Virus record (IMG/VR): IMGVR_UViG_3300009285_004743
Coordinates: 1 to 23,110 of that record
Reading direction: 5' to 3' (one strand)
Source of the DNA: a virus
Length of the DNA: 23,110 bases
Of the stretch, positions 112-22,856 are shown piece by piece. Each line of letters begins with the position of its first letter. Within the stretch, counting starts at the first letter, position 1. Under the pieces are notes generated by a model. It worked only from the letters and a program-made list of their open reading frames with translations, was not told the origin of the DNA and did not search any database. A program made the position numbers and the translations under genes.

Positions 112-597
112 CTACTCCTTTCGAAATCTATTGCTCGCGCTGCCGCTGCCCGCCTTGCGGCGGCATTCGGAGAGGGTATTTGTCGCCTCCTCACGGTGCC
201 TCGCGAGCCATGCGGCGTTTTCGACCACGCGCACGATCTCGCCAGGCATCGAGGGCTTGTAGACGACCGCGTATTCCGGGTCCTGGCCCTGAAACGCGCG
301 CTCCACGTCGGCCCGGCTCCAGCCGGTGTAGATGACCGCGCCCACGCGCAGACGCTCCTCTTCGATGGCGTTGACGAGCGTCGCGCCGCTGCGGGCGATG
401 GACCCGTTGTCCAGTCCAAGGTCGATGATGGCGGCGTCAAAGCTGCCGCCCCGAAGAAGAACCAGCGCCTCATCCCCGTCGCCGACGGTCGCCGGTTCAT
501 GCCCGGCCGCGCGCAGGAGCAGGCGAAGGGATTCGCGGATGGCTTCTTCGTCGTCCACGATCAAGATTCGGTAGACCTCCTTCGGGCTCGTCGTCAT
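112..597 (-). CDS. Stand-alone response-regulator receiver (CheY-like REC) domain protein
   Basis: This 161-residue protein is a receiver domain of the two-component family, which takes a phosphoryl group from a histidine kinase onto an Asp. The landmarks are all present: acidic pair D15-D16 in ILIVDDEE, phospho-acceptor D59 in AAIIDLG, the switch Thr at T91 in YTGW, and the conserved Lys K114 in YKPS. After about residue 125 there is only a short, basic, Arg/Ser-rich tail with no recognisable DNA-binding or enzymatic output domain. The start overlaps the stop of the holin-like gene by ATGA, so the two are probably translated together late in infection. A receiver domain in a phage lysis locus is unusual. 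It could act as a phosphate sink, bind a host kinase, or regulate lysis; the sequence does not decide. Confidence 0.85.
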   Translation of the reverse strand: MTTSPKEVYRILIVDDEEAIRESLRLLLRAAGHEPATVGDGDEALVLLRGGSFDAAIIDLGLDNGSIARSGATLVNAIEEERLRVGAVIYTGWSRADVERAFQGQDPEYAVVYKPSMPGEIVRVVENAAWLARHREEATNTLSECRRKAGSGSASNRFRKE

Positions 598-2927: not shown

Positions 2928-2948
2928 CGTCTACCCGCCTTCCCCGCT

Positions 2949-3028
2949 GCCGCCCGCCGTCAGAGAGACGCTCACCGTCACGCCTCCACGCCGCCGCCCG
3001 CCGTCAGAGAGGCGCTCACCGTCACGCC
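2949..3028. repeat. Near-perfect 36-bp direct repeat at the 3' end of a tail gene
   Basis: Copies at 2949-2984 and 2993-3028 are 36 bases long and differ at one base (A versus G at repeat position 20). Their start points are 44 bases apart. Because 44 is not a multiple of three, the second copy encountered by the minus-strand gene is read in another frame. The same peptide, GGVTVSxSLTAGG, is therefore encoded twice in two frames, once inside the 475-residue tail protein and once just after it. Confidence 0.9.
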
Positions 3029-4405
3029 GCCTTCGTTGCCAATCGCGGCGACATTCACGACGCAAGGCGTCTCGTCGAATAGAGCGCAAAGCTGCTCCCG
3101 CGTCGGACTCATGTTCGCCGTGAAATCGACTTGGCTCGTGACGACCGCTTGGGGAAACCACGCTTGAGCGAGGAATCCCATCGTCGTCGTCGCTACGCCG
3201 ACGGGCAGTTGACCCATGCCCGCATCGTAGGGCACGTTGAGGTTCGCGATCGTTTTGCCTTGTACGTCCGTCGTGGGCGAATCGCGAAGATCCGGCAAGG
3301 GAAGGATCGGGACTCCACCGGCTGGAGAACCGGGCGTCGGGATCGAAGGGGGCACTCGACAGGGTACATCCGGCGCGGTAAACCAGCATTTGGCCTCCAG
3401 GTCCCAGCGCCCTTCCTTGACAGCGTCGAAGTGCCTGTGAAGCAACGCGGGATTGTAGCGCAGGAATGCCTTGACATAGTGGGGCGGGTCGCTGGCCGGG
3501 ACGTAATCGGGCGAATCGAAATTCAGCGGCGCGTCCTGCCTTTGGGTGCGGAAGAAATAGGTTTCCGTCGAGAGATGCCCCGAATTGGTCGGCTCTCCAT
3601 CCTCCGTTTTCGTGATCTCATGCTTGTCCCCGCCCGCGACGCCGACTTCGAACGGCCCGAAGTGAACGCGACCCATCACCGCCAGCGTCTTTTTCGAGCG
3701 GTCATGAACAAACCCGAATCCCGGCGCATCGTCAGAGCAGCCGCTTCCCCCAATCTGCCACGCCAGGACGTTCGCGCCGTACCGTGGCTTGCCCCCTCGC
3801 GGCTGGGCGACGTACCAGGCTGAATGAAGAGCCGCCGAGATTCCATAGGCGGCTTTATCCGTCAGGTCGTGAACCTGGCTACTGAGGGCGGTTCCCCCGA
3901 AGCGGTTGGCCGCCACAAGCCGCCGATCCGTCGCCAAGAAGACATTTTCCTGATTGTTCTCGCTCGTACCGGCCAGCATGATTCCGAGGGTCCCCGAAGG
4001 GTGTCTTTGGCCGCCGGGGGGCAGGGTAAACGGGGCGAAACGGTCATCCGCGAGACCCGCCCAATACTGCGGCAGGACAGCCGCATCGAGTCCGACTCCA
4101 CAACGTGACGTACCCGTGGCGATTGTGTCCCCTCCAGTCGTGACGATGGCAGGCCACGCGAAATTCCAGCCGCTCGCAACCTTGTCGAGTTTTGCGCCCA
4201 GGGCGGGCCAGTTGTGGCCGCCGAACACATAGCCTACGGTATCCGGGTCAATGATCCACTGACCTTCCTGGTCGAGCTGATCGCGCCGGCCGGTGACGCG
4301 CCACGCATACAGTGCCGGTCGAAGCCCGAGATTCCACTCCGGGTTGTGGACCTGTAGCGGCAGAATGCCAGGGCCGTGCGCGACGAGAGACGTTCCTAGC
4401 TTCAT
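2978..4405 (-). CDS. Large tail/baseplate-type protein of unknown fold (475 aa)
   Basis: No specific family is recognised. The protein is rich in aromatic, Gly and Pro residues, has no signal peptide or membrane segment, and looks like a beta-rich structural protein. A Pro-rich linker (PCRVPPSIPTPGSPAG) at about residues 350-365 separates a large N-terminal part from a C-terminal part of about 110 residues. It lies between a 738-residue tail protein, whose stop it overlaps by ATGA (4405-4402), and the tail fibre, so a tail-tip or fibre-anchoring role is likely. The C-terminus ends inside a direct repeat. In the neighbouring frame a second copy of the same terminal peptide continues to a TAG at 2933-2931, three bases before the fibre start, which suggests the original C-terminus lay there. 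Confidence 0.7.
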   Translation of the reverse strand: MKLGTSLVAHGPGILPLQVHNPEWNLGLRPALYAWRVTGRRDQLDQEGQWIIDPDTVGYVFGGHNWPALGAKLDKVASGWNFAWPAIVTTGGDTIATGTSRCGVGLDAAVLPQYWAGLADDRFAPFTLPPGGQRHPSGTLGIMLAGTSENNQENVFLATDRRLVAANRFGGTALSSQVHDLTDKAAYGISAALHSAWYVAQPRGGKPRYGANVLAWQIGGSGCSDDAPGFGFVHDRSKKTLAVMGRVHFGPFEVGVAGGDKHEITKTEDGEPTNSGHLSTETYFFRTQRQDAPLNFDSPDYVPASDPPHYVKAFLRYNPALLHRHFDAVKEGRWDLEAKCWFTAPDVPCRVPPSIPTPGSPAGGVPILPLPDLRDSPTTDVQGKTIANLNVPYDAGMGQLPVGVATTTMGFLAQAWFPQAVVTSQVDFTANMSPTREQLCALFDETPCVVNVAAIGNEGGVTVSASLTAGGGVEA

Positions 4406-17697: not shown

Positions 17698-18438
17698 ATG
17701 GTACGCAGGGCGATACTCGAAACCTTTCCCCCCAAGGATGTCGTGACCAAGGCCCCTAAGACGAACGGGGCGGCCCCGAAAGTCCAACCCCGAGGCTCCA
17801 TCGCGGTCATCGCCGTGCCGCGTGCGACCGCCAGCATCCATCTCGTCGGCACGAGCCCGCTGATCGTGCATCAATTCTCCGAAAAGGCGAAGACCATGAT
17901 GCGCGACAAGCAGACGGGCGTCGCCAGGACGGCGAAACAGGCCAAGGTGCCGTTCAACGAGTTCGTCGGCAGCCTCTACGTGATGCCGGGCAAGGCGCTT
18001 CCGAGCAAGACGCTGAAGGTCGGCGGAGCGTGGAAGTTCGTCGCGAACACATTCTACGTCCCGGCCTCCGGGCTCAAGAACGCTCTCGTAACGGCGGCGC
18101 CCCTGACGGATCTCGCCAAGACGCAGATTCGCGCGGGCATCTTCATCAAGCAGGACCGCATCCCGCTCAAGTACGAGCGGCTCGTCATGCGCGAGGACAT
18201 GGTGAAGATCGGCAAATTCCCGAACAAGGTGGCGGACATCCGCTATCGCGGCGAGTTCCAAGGGTGGTCGCTCGTCGCCGATGTGGAATTCCGAACCGAT
18301 GTCCTGTCGGCGCCGGAACTCTACAACCTCTTCGACCACGCGGGCTTTTCCATCGGCCTGCACGAATGGCGGCCGGAGAAGAACGGCTCCTTCGGGCGCT
18401 TCGAGGTCGAGAAGACGAAGGGAGGCGAGGTGCGATGA
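17698..18438 (+). CDS. Plus-strand cassette protein 1, uncharacterised phage family (246 aa)
   Basis: The start at 17698 is chosen because AGAGGT lies seven bases upstream; an in-frame upstream ATG lacks this. Two stretches stand out: HLVGTSPLIVHQFSEKAK (about 48-65), and a C-terminal FDHAGFSIGLHEWRPEKNG followed by SFGRFEV (about 211-236). I associate the pair with a family of phage proteins of unknown function with a small T-x-L-L/I-x-H-x-F start and a G-x-x-x-x-RP-x-x-x-G-x-FGRF end. The glycine-rich end vaguely recalls RAMP-type RNA-binding folds, but this is only an impression. No membrane segment or signal peptide is present. It overlaps the next gene by ATGA, so the two are one operon, opposite in direction to all other genes. 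Confidence 0.75.
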   Translation: MVRRAILETFPPKDVVTKAPKTNGAAPKVQPRGSIAVIAVPRATASIHLVGTSPLIVHQFSEKAKTMMRDKQTGVARTAKQAKVPFNEFVGSLYVMPGKALPSKTLKVGGAWKFVANTFYVPASGLKNALVTAAPLTDLAKTQIRAGIFIKQDRIPLKYERLVMREDMVKIGKFPNKVADIRYRGEFQGWSLVADVEFRTDVLSAPELYNLFDHAGFSIGLHEWRPEKNGSFGRFEVEKTKGGEVR

Positions 18439-18986
18439 CGACAGCGACGGCGACGCAAAGGACCCTCAAGGCGCAGCCGCCAGGGGAACGCAAGCCGGGC
18501 CGAAAGGCCCGGCGAAGCGCCCTCATGGAAGAGCTGGCAATGCTGGAGGCCAAGTGGGGCGGCCTATCGCCCAAGCGGTACGTCGAGTGGGCGAGGACCC
18601 ATCCCGACTCGGCCTCGTACAAGTCTATTTGGTCGTGGGACGACCGAAGGGCGGCGGCCGACTGGCGACTCGCGCAGGCCCGCAACATCATCGGCCGCTA
18701 TCGCTTCTCCATCACGATTGACGGAGAACAGTTCCAGCCACGCCTGTATAGGAACGTGATCGTGAGCGCGATAGGGGCAGAGGAGCGGCGCGAGTACCGC
18801 ACGGTGAACACGATCAAGGGCCACAAGCGGCTCGAGGCCCAAGTCCTGCAAGACGCGCTCGACCGGCTCTTGTATTGGCGCGATGAGTACGTGGCGTATT
18901 CATCGCTGTTCGGTCAATCCATGAAATGGGTCGACAAGGCGATACGCTGCATCAAGAGGAGGATCGGAAAAAGTAAAGGCAGTTGA
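18435..18986 (+). CDS. Plus-strand cassette protein 2, uncharacterised phage family (183 aa)
   Basis: The ATG at 18435 overlaps the stop of the preceding gene (ATGA), which sets the start although the frame is open further upstream. The product has a basic, low-complexity N-terminus (about 1-30), then a helical region with SIWSWDDRRAAADWRLAQAR (66-83). It resembles phage proteins carrying a W-D-D-x-x-A-A-x-x-x-R-L-x-Q-A-R motif, often seen as accessory genes of unknown function. The C-terminal third is helical and basic (KRRIGKSKGS). The last codons (GGC AGT TGA) already contain the GGCAG header of the repeat array that follows, so the array begins inside the stop region of this gene. The partnership with the preceding gene suggests a shared role, not known. 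Confidence 0.75.
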   Translation: MTTATATQRTLKAQPPGERKPGRKARRSALMEELAMLEAKWGGLSPKRYVEWARTHPDSASYKSIWSWDDRRAAADWRLAQARNIIGRYRFSITIDGEQFQPRLYRNVIVSAIGAEERREYRTVNTIKGHKRLEAQVLQDALDRLLYWRDEYVAYSSLFGQSMKWVDKAIRCIKRRIGKSKGS

Positions 18987-19563
18987 GGACCGGACCGGAG
19001 GGGAAGGGATTGGAGCGGAGCGGACCGGAAAGGCAGGGCAGGATCGGAGTGGAGGGGACCGGAAAGGACGGGAAGGGAAAGGACGGGAAAGGCAGTTGGG
19101 GAGTGGATTGGAGGGGAAGGGAACGGACTGGATTGGATAGGCAGTCTTGGCGGCGAGTGGCTGGGAGTGCATCGGATGGGAAAGTAGCGGATTGGAGGGG
19201 CAGGACGGGATCGGAACGGATAGGACCGGATAGGACGGGAAGGGAAGGGAATGGACGGGCAGTCTTGGAGCGGACAGGATCGGAGCGGAAAGGAGCGGAT
19301 CGGAGAGGAATGGATGGGCAGTTAAGGACTGGACCGGATGGGAACGGACGGGAGTGGACAGGATGGGAAAGGCAGTCTTGGAGTGGACAGGAACGGAGAG
19401 GAAAGTAGGGGACTGGAGGGTTGAGGAATGGAGAGGATGGGCAGTTGAGGATGGGAGGGGACGGGACTGGAGAGGACTGGAAGGGCAGGATTGGAGGGGA
19501 GCGGACAGGAGTGGAGAGGAAAGGACGGGACGGGAGGGGATCGGAAGGGAAAGGCAGGCGAGG
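18978..19563 (+). repeat. Array of 97 GGANN pentamers in ten blocks, each opened by GGCAGNNNN
   Basis: The plus strand reads as ten consecutive blocks. Each block is a 9-nt header (GGCAG plus four bases, most often TCTT or TTGA-like) followed by 9, 10, 8, 10, 10, 10, 9, 12, 7 and 12 pentamers. Header starts are at 18978, 19032, 19091, 19140, 19199, 19258, 19317, 19371, 19440 and 19484, with an eleventh at 19553. Of the 97 pentamers, 90 fit GGANN exactly while the NN pair takes nearly all values. Five of the seven misfits are in block four and two in block eight. No single-base slip is seen in about 580 bases. The array ends against the stop codons of two convergent genes (18984-18986 and 19566-19564). 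Block lengths are not multiples of three, so it is not coding. The 577 bases between the stops hold no other gene and no hairpin-plus-T-tract terminator. Confidence 0.95.
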
Positions 19564-19848
19564 CTAGGGATTCACGATCTCGGCATACGCCCGCATCGCG
19601 TACATCAGCTCGGTTATCCCTTTTGCGGTCAAGCCCCAGCGGCTCGCCGGTCTTCCTCGCAAGCCGCCTGCGCGTTCCGTGAACGTGCGCCGAACGAAGC
19701 TCCGCTGCTCAAGGCTCCGCAATATCCGACGCGGGTTGAGCAGTTCAACTTTGAACAAGGTGAAATGCCGAATCTCCACGTCCCCCGTCGGCAATTCCCC
19801 TTGACGATAGAGCGCCGACATGACCCGCAACGCTTCGGGTAGAATCAT
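19564..19848 (-). CDS. Small winged-helix-like protein (94 aa)
   Basis: The product has the layout of a single winged-helix domain: helix 1 (EALRVMSALYRQGEL), a middle helix pair (LLNPRRILRSLEQRSFVRR), and a wing-like strand pair (RTFTERAGGLRGRPASRWGL) followed by a closing helix (AKGITELMYAMRAYA). This resembles MarR/PadR-type DNA-binding folds of about 90 residues. The start overlaps the end of the extended head morphogenesis frame by ATGA (19848-19845). It could be a regulator of the late genes or a head protein with a winged-helix fold, as seen in some phage connectors and terminase subunits. Its stop borders the GGANN array. Confidence 0.6.
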   Translation of the reverse strand: MILPEALRVMSALYRQGELPTGDVEIRHFTLFKVELLNPRRILRSLEQRSFVRRTFTERAGGLRGRPASRWGLTAKGITELMYAMRAYAEIVNP

Positions 19849-21172: not shown

Positions 21173-21963
21173 GCCGCGGCCTCCTTCTTTTCCGATTCCT
21201 CGATGACGCACCAGACATCGAGGTCCCGCTTGGATGATCGAAGCGCGTTCACTTGGACGAGCCGATATTCGGCGCCCTTGATCTTGATGATGGCTCCTGC
21301 CACCCGATCGGCGATGACGTGATCTCCGACCTTCAAGCCGGAAAGGGCTCGGTCCCCCGAAGGCAGGAGGGCACCGGGCCCGACGGCCGCCACCCGCGCC
21401 ATCGCCCCTTTGACCGTCGGGCTGGGCATGACGAGGCCGCCAAGCATGTGCCGGGACCACTCCTCCTCGTCGTACTTGAGCAGGACCTTTTCATCCAGCG
21501 GTTCGACGGCCGTGATGTTGAGTTCTTCCTCCTTGCCCCCAAGCGTCACCTTGGCCCAAAGGCCACCGTGCCGGCGCAGGAATCGGTAGAAGGTGTTATG
21601 CCGCGCGTAATCCACCAACTCGCCGACGTACTGCATGCACAGGACATAATCGCCGGGCTGGACGTCCATGGGAATGAATGCGCCGCTCTCGGGATGACAC
21701 CAGCCCTTGCCCGCGCTTACCACTTGGCCGAAGCAGCACTCGCTCTTTTCTTGCCCGACGATGATGAGTCCGCTGGAGGTCTTGGCCCGCGCAATCTGGC
21801 GAATCTGGAGAAAGTCCTGTATCGGGCGCAGGCTCTCCGGCGCGAGGTCGTCCTGCTGACCCCACTCGTGATGGACGCCGCGCTTGATGCGCCGGTACCG
21901 CGGTCTCACATTCCAGTCGCGGCCGGCGCGGTCTTGCTCCTCGCTGACGTTTCGCTTCTCCAT
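21169..21963 (-). CDS. Double GroES/Cpn10-like co-chaperonin protein (264 aa)
   Basis: The sequence reads as two GroES-like domains in tandem. Domain 1 is about residues 45-137: LRPIQDFLQIRQI, a mobile-loop-like KTSSGLIIVG, then FGQVVSAGKGW and IPMDVQPGDYVLCMQYVGE. Domain 2 is about 152-242: VEPLDEKVLLKYDEE, the loop MLGGLVMPSP, then MARVAAVGPGALLPSGD, LKVGDHVIADRVAG, and IKIKGAEYRLVQVNAL. These are the family phrases P-L-x-D-x-V, G-G-I/L-V/I-x-P, V-x-x-V-G-P-G, V-x-V-G-D-x-V and I-x-x-x-x-Y-x-x-V. GroES normally has one domain of about 97 residues and caps the GroEL ring. Phage relatives such as T4 gp31 replace it for capsid folding. The start overlaps the glycosyltransferase gene by 58 bases; a GTG at codon 19 is a possible alternative. 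Confidence 0.8.
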   Translation of the reverse strand: MEKRNVSEEQDRAGRDWNVRPRYRRIKRGVHHEWGQQDDLAPESLRPIQDFLQIRQIARAKTSSGLIIVGQEKSECCFGQVVSAGKGWCHPESGAFIPMDVQPGDYVLCMQYVGELVDYARHNTFYRFLRRHGGLWAKVTLGGKEEELNITAVEPLDEKVLLKYDEEEWSRHMLGGLVMPSPTVKGAMARVAAVGPGALLPSGDRALSGLKVGDHVIADRVAGAIIKIKGAEYRLVQVNALRSSKRDLDVWCVIEESEKKEAAA

Positions 21964-22856
21964 CTCGTCTCAAACCCTTTCAAATCGAGCCCCGCAAATC
22001 GCTCTACCCCGTTCTTGTCCAGAAGCTCGAATATCTGCTCTTCCTGATAGGGGTGGCTGTCCAGCTTGATCTGGTCCTTGGCGATTCCGGCCCACCATTC
22101 CGGCGGTAGCGGATGAAGGTGCATCTCCCTTTCGTCCAGAGCCGCGTCGTAGATGGCGTTCAGCTCCTTGACGGTACGACGATCCGGCCAGCGGACCCGC
22201 TCGACCATGCGGTACAGGACGTGCTTTGCGATGAGGCGGCGCTTGTTGGCGAATTGCAAGTGCATCGCGCCGCCGCCCGCGTGTTCTTTCGATGGCATCT
22301 TTTCGAGCCAAGGGACATAGCGACCCCCGGCCCCCGAAGGAATACGGTTGTGGAAATGGTAGCCGTCCTCGCGCGGCTTGTGGGTCAAGGATTTATCGGC
22401 GTTGTCGTTAATGGCGATCGACAGGACCCCATGAGACCAGACGCTTCGATCCTGGCGGAAGTGATCCAAGTCGCCCCACACCGGGACCATGGGCAGTTCG
22501 AGCACTTGGCCCGGCGTCAGTCGTTCGCAGAATCCGCGCAGCTTCGGGAGGACGTTCGCCGTCGGGATCTCGTCGGCGTCGATCAGGCCAAAGTGGGTAG
22601 CGGACATGATTTCGCGGGCCGTTCTGAGTAAGCGGTCCCGTAGGTCCATCTCGGCCCAGTGCTCGCTCGGCCCCTCGAACAGCATCTTGACCCGGCCCGG
22701 ATTCAAGAGGGCGATTTCCCCGACGATTTCAACCGTGCGGTCGGTGCAGACGTGGCAGAGCACGCACACCTCGTCGCACCATTGGAGAGCCGCGGGCAAG
22801 GAAGCCCCGATAATCCATTCCTCGTTGCGGACGAGCATGCAACCGACGATCTTCAT
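21906..22856 (-). CDS. Glycosyltransferase, family 2-like (316 aa)
   Basis: Residues 2-12 (KIVGCMLVRNE) form the first strand and nucleotide-binding start typical of family 2 glycosyltransferases. CDEVCVLCHVCTDRTVEI (27-44) matches the D-E-V-x-V-x-D-x-x-S-x-D-x-T region, and DAD at 93-95 (in LIDADEIP) is the metal-binding D-x-D. No membrane segment is visible, so it is probably soluble. In phages such enzymes modify DNA bases, virion proteins or host surface sugars; the sequence alone does not tell which. The start overlaps the preceding stop (ATGA), tying it to the ABA-sandwich gene and the co-chaperonin-like gene, upstream of the head genes. Confidence 0.75.
   Translation of the reverse strand: MKIVGCMLVRNEEWIIGASLPAALQWCDEVCVLCHVCTDRTVEIVGEIALLNPGRVKMLFEGPSEHWAEMDLRDRLLRTAREIMSATHFGLIDADEIPTANVLPKLRGFCERLTPGQVLELPMVPVWGDLDHFRQDRSVWSHGVLSIAINDNADKSLTHKPREDGYHFHNRIPSGAGGRYVPWLEKMPSKEHAGGGAMHLQFANKRRLIAKHVLYRMVERVRWPDRRTVKELNAIYDAALDEREMHLHPLPPEWWAGIAKDQIKLDSHPYQEEQIFELLDKNGVERFAGLDLKGFETRWRSETSARSKTAPAATGM

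Follow-up and report, generated by a model that had tools for sequence, protein, structure and literature searches.

A probable phage VIPR system with a ten-guide, GGA-lettered array in an IMG/VR virus genome

The stretch of DNA analysed here, referred to as the window, comprises 23,110 nt (positions 1–23,110 of IMG/VR virus record IMGVR_UViG_3300009285_004743), and its gene content includes a Mu F-like head gene. The locus of interest begins with a gene for a 246-aa RAMP-fold protein, vipr (17698–18438, plus strand; ATG at 17698, stop codon at 18436–18438), which is followed by a vap-like accessory gene of 183 aa whose start overlaps the vipr stop in an ATGA (18435–18986, plus strand). A pentamer array occupies 18978–19556 on the plus strand, its 5′ end lying inside the final codons of the vap-like gene, and beyond it is a small convergent gene of 94 aa and no family (19564–19848, minus strand), a neighbor outside the system; the flanking genes thus converge on the array. 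No promoter or terminator consensus stood out at the locus, and no Rfam families were found in the window. Elsewhere on this phage contig are a response-regulator receiver domain protein (115–597, minus strand; Pfam E 1e-11), a 44-base direct repeat in 2.1 copies among the minus-strand structural genes (2936–3028), and, near the head-gene cluster, a weak match to glycosyl transferase family 2 (21909–22856, minus strand). Close phage relatives of the capsid and tail genes were not found in a search that was aimed at the host.

The array was initially noticed in a sequence-only reading, as a strictly phased GGANN array between convergent genes, and it was recovered on the plus strand in that place. 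The ten blocks then described also stand, but not their division into a 9-nt header and 7–12 pentamers; the header is better parsed as two elements, a GGCA of 4 bases and the opening pentamer of the block that follows (GTTNN, GTCNN, or GGANN), giving guides of 8–13 pentamers. With this parse, ten units of GGCA plus guide and a closing GGCA rebuild 18978–19556 letter for letter. All guides are on the plus strand: W1 (18982–19036, 11 pentamers), W2 (19041–19090, 10), W3 (19095–19139, 9), W4 (19144–19198, 11), W5 (19203–19257, 11), W6 (19262–19316, 11), W7 (19321–19370, 10), W8 (19375–19439, 13), W9 (19444–19483, 8), and W10 (19488–19552, 13). Among the total of 107 pentamers, 92 are GGANN and 105 conform to G[GT][ACT]NN, with the two off-pattern pentamers, CGAGT and GCATC, both within block 4; six of the 11 pentamers of W4 are not GGANN, and this guide is possibly decayed. 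Runs of six consecutive GGANN occurred 37 times in the array, versus none in 100 shuffles of the window.

Two of the initial figures required correction. Under the original parse, the count of 90 GGANN among 97 pentamers becomes 89 of 96–97, which leaves the near-constancy of GGA intact but not the exact number, and the header-to-header distances (54, 5, 54, 49, 59, 59, 59, 54, 69, 44, and 69) equal 9 plus a multiple of 5, that is, 4 mod 5, in every case except the single spacing of 5. The two N positions are nearly free (entropy 3.94 of 4 bits) and only 4 of 97 neighboring pentamers are identical, in agreement with the first description, and its deductions that the array is non-coding and that GGA and the 5-base pitch are kept while NN varies hold.

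Sequence and fold comparisons identify the product of 17698–18438 as a Vipr homologue with a predicted Csm3/Cas7-like RAMP fold. A phmmer search of the PDB returned one solved-structure match, 36pp (“SUSP1 Vipr protein”, E 0.0011), to which a family profile of 37 aligned relatives matched at E 3.8e-33; the protein also matched phrog_4652 (E 9e-28). Its AlphaFold model (pLDDT 86) resembled Csm3/Cas7-type RAMPs of type III and VII CRISPR systems, with a best Foldseek E of 1.6e-5 and, by VIA, a Z of 11 and an rmsd of 3.9 over 157 residues against chains of this type. Relatives of the vap-like protein (phmmer E 1e-10 to 9e-5) are encoded immediately after vipr at 16 further loci, and many carry a motif like HPLHxxFEWDDxxAA; the window protein matched phrog_15946 (E 6e-7), a phrog of no known function, and had no significant Pfam, PADLOC, or NCBIfam match. 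PADLOC and NCBIfam hold no model for either vipr or vap.

VIPR (Viral Interference Programmable Repeat) is a phage-encoded CRISPR relative that was first reported in 2026 and is only months old in print (PMC13142463; bioRxiv 2026.04.26.720920, v2 June 2026). As described in the main text of that report, it consists of a small RAMP protein, Vipr, and guide RNAs (vrRNAs) of 9–16 GGY/NN pentamers, in which the constant trinucleotide is given as GGY “or a related consensus” and NN is hypervariable; the guides target dsDNA, their NN pairs being read with one skipped base (the 1-nt skip rule), and repress competing phages (PMC13142463). The systems occur mainly in phages and proviruses, comprise seven types with accessory vap genes (vap1–6) and possibly staggered arrays, and are proposed as ancestors of the CRISPR RAMP proteins (PMC13142463). 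By gene content and array logic, the window fits published VIPR, as a GGA variant. Like the systems of Escherichia phage SUSP1 and a Pseudomonas fulva prophage in that account, it combines a Vipr homologue, an adjoining vap-like gene, and pentamers with a constant trinucleotide and hypervariable NN, in a phage genome and with the array on the vipr strand (PMC13142463). It differs from them in having GGA in place of the main-text consensus GGY and in carrying ten head-to-tail guides with 4-base GGCA separators; in addition, W9 has 8 pentamers versus the published 9–16, and no structured 3′ tail was visible in single-sequence folding of the array end and junctions (z about 0 versus shuffles), whereas such a tail is stated for the SUSP1 clade (PMC13142463). 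Class 1 CRISPR-Cas, with its Csm3/Cas7 backbone and CRISPR array, likewise shares the RAMP fold and a multi-guide array; however, the window array has a period of 5 and lacks 20–40-nt repeats with unique continuous spacers, guide information resides in two bases per pentamer, and there is no other cas-like gene.

To find similar arrays, viral and genome contigs were scanned for eight GGANN, and the counts that follow are among the matches listed. Many were simple repeats, but at least 24 free-NN stretches besides the window were obtained (23 in viral contigs and one in a Spongiibacteraceae MAG), so that the recurrence with different NN foreseen from the sequence was borne out. The same block layout was seen with other separators, specifically GGCTGTAAT (L027), GGCCGTAAA (L152), GGACGTAAC (L089), and GGCAGGCGC (L062), and with GGCA itself in L017, L098, and L103. 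These free-NN loci were selected by DNA pattern alone; nevertheless, a Vipr profile that was started from the window protein and extended by iterative searches of the fetched loci placed a vipr gene beside the array in 19 of the 24, versus 0 of 214 other pattern matches among those listed. L056, L071, and L078 nearly duplicate L031, and without them vipr adjoins the array in 16 of 21 independent loci. In three of the five free-NN loci without Vipr (L025, L073, and L093), the array is at or near the end of the stretch. The GGANN pattern is a simple DNA-level finder for such systems that requires no protein search.

In all 20 systems, the G-rich strand of the array is the vipr strand. A same-strand Vipr partner accounts for the pitch of 5 bases, for the freedom of NN, and for the strand of the array, and with its appearance the three roles suggested in the sequence-only reading, a CsrA sponge, a Rho site, and a fork barrier, were set aside. 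A G-quadruplex and a TRAP-like 11-mer ring with a 5-base pitch, both considered for the array, were likewise dropped once the Vipr partner was found. The minus strand of the array is C-rich and G-poor and genes converge on it, as would suit a large Rho utilization site in minus-strand RNA ending the upstream operon; yet such a site has no need of phasing, predicts neither the 5-base register nor a Vipr partner, and would not account for arrays located upstream of vipr (L084, L089, L306, and L310). Since the strand relation is constant, a C-rich transcript would run antisense to a conserved gene pair, and we consider a Rho site extremely unlikely. A DNA-level protein-binding or fork-barrier array, with Vipr as a DNA-binding repressor reading GGA every half turn, would agree with a phased array adjoining the gene for a nucleic-acid-binding protein. 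The solved relatives listed are, however, CRISPR RNA-binding RAMP subunits, in the published systems Vipr purifies together with its vrRNAs (PMC13142463), and free NN would be left unexplained; this very improbable reading is superseded by the recurrent same-strand partner, a Vipr/RAMP gene.

In a reverse test, Vipr relatives were collected by protein similarity alone from 28 viral contigs and 40 phage records. In most cases, vipr was adjoined by period-5 arrays in which GTT, GGT, or GGC (GKY) replaced GGA, and with blocks often ending in GGCAG, as in the window; eight of the viral loci had no run of seven clean pentamers under the strict pattern, with a weaker period-5 signal in several. Among Mycobacterium and Gordonia phages, Brocalys gp45 and UmaThurman gp39, both annotated as hypothetical, are Viprs 32–33% identical to that of the window and have adjoining 5-base arrays with blocks ending in GGCAG, but their repeats are GGC/GGT. 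Vipr homologues annotated only as hypothetical, with adjoining period-5 arrays, are present in L306–L309 and in L310 (phiSUSP1); phages with such annotations include SUSP1/SUSP2, Felixounavirus relatives, Mycobacterium and Gordonia phages, and Pseudomonas LESphi2. In mycobacteriophage LittleE (L309:2150–2500 and 3630–4000), vipr and arrays lie between the tape-measure and minor tail genes.

Outside the window, the register restarted at 4 mod 5 in 95 of 101 junctions (103 of 109 with the window included), and this restart was common to GGA and pyrimidine systems. These data bear on titration of a GGA-binding regulator such as CsrA/RsmA, or of the ribosomal anti-Shine-Dalgarno, by the array transcript. 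The CsrA core is GGA, and about 90 GGA are on the transcribed strand; however, titration requires neither an exact 5-base pitch nor a shared 4-base junction step, the constant letters of close relatives are GTT, GGT, or GGC rather than GGA, and the partner gene is vipr, for which titration offers no prediction. We consider this role highly unlikely.

The locus is very probably a phage VIPR system composed of vipr, the vap-like accessory gene, and a plus-strand vrRNA array of ten guides, and it would repress competing elements through gapped guides that pair with dsDNA. In the proposed mechanism, Vipr, as a RAMP protein, would coat the array transcript and grip the constant GGA of each pentamer, and this hold would fix the 5-base pitch. 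The two remaining, free bases would be exposed to form a gapped guide pairing with dsDNA as NN-x-NN-x-NN, provided that the published 1-nt skip rule applies to a GGA array, and only the NN letters would determine which DNA is targeted; for guide W6, the predicted dsDNA pattern is TTNGCNCANTCNGCNAANGCNTCNGANATNTG. The outcome would be repression of genes in competing phages or other mobile elements. GGCA, with its register step of −1, may mark the guide boundary, for example as the site of an RNA cut or of a filament end, and such a boundary signal is suggested because the 4-base register step recurs at junctions.

Targets were sought by comparing the 8-pair cores of W5, W6, W8, and W10 with 2.9 million viral contigs under the 1-nt skip rule, and only matches of chance number and chance quality were obtained (W8, 18; W10, 20; W6, 7; W5, 3). 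The best W6 match, 21 of 22 bases in phage contig L321, was treated as chance because the skipped base would be codon position 1 of the overlapped tape-measure-like frame, a phase derived by hand from coordinates; a W10 match extended for 20 bases before pairing failed. No target was found for a guide of the L031 system under the same rule, and clear targets were absent from the fetched loci and from the window itself. As no natural targets were found, expression of the array and targeting by it are inferred. The target scans and the off-consensus W4 would also suit a dead VIPR locus whose guides are no longer expressed or functional; however, a dead locus is improbable, as the vipr and vap-like reading frames are open and almost all pentamers of the remaining nine guides retain the pattern, without any slip in register.

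The composition of the guides was also compared with codon phase. Pooled over 16 systems, NN composition was fitted best by codon positions 1+2 (lnL +25 over 2+3 and +105 over 3+1), as would be expected were the skipped base to lie at the wobble position. None of 1000 letter shuffles, and none of 1000 random genome samples, reached the margin over 2+3, whereas 4 of 1000 letter shuffles reached that over 3+1; for the window NN alone, positions 1+2 and 2+3 fitted equally well.

When the GGA label was mapped on a tree of 47 Viprs, five changes were needed, at least three of them forced by well-supported branches, and the window Vipr was nearest to that of a pyrimidine user (L242, 43% identity). 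Retrieval of the GGA systems with a GGA pattern biases their frequency on the tree but not their scatter across it. Vipr residues tracking the A/pyrimidine letter could be compared in three independent pairs only, and no residue was assigned. A tentative proposal, to which we give slightly less than even weight, is that GGA-lettered, GGCA-punctuated arrays constitute a distinct CRISPR-like form of VIPR, with one long many-guide RNA that is cut or capped at the 4-base register step and a constant third letter that, together with Vipr, has changed several times from A to pyrimidine or back.

The locus, found from raw sequence, extends VIPR to a repeat letter absent from the main text of PMC13142463 and, further, to an explicitly punctuated array of ten guides; this novelty is judged against the main text, and the supplement may already include a GGA or GGCA-punctuated variant. 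It allows tests of which feature of the constant trinucleotide Vipr reads and of how a single VIPR transcript is split into guides. As a separate observation, GGANN blocks in one of the recovered contigs (L119:6642–7125) are followed by about three copies of a repeated tRNA-3′-half-like sequence (GGTTAGTGGGTTCGACTCCCGCATCGCC), possibly a tail or a processing signal derived from the end of a tRNA.
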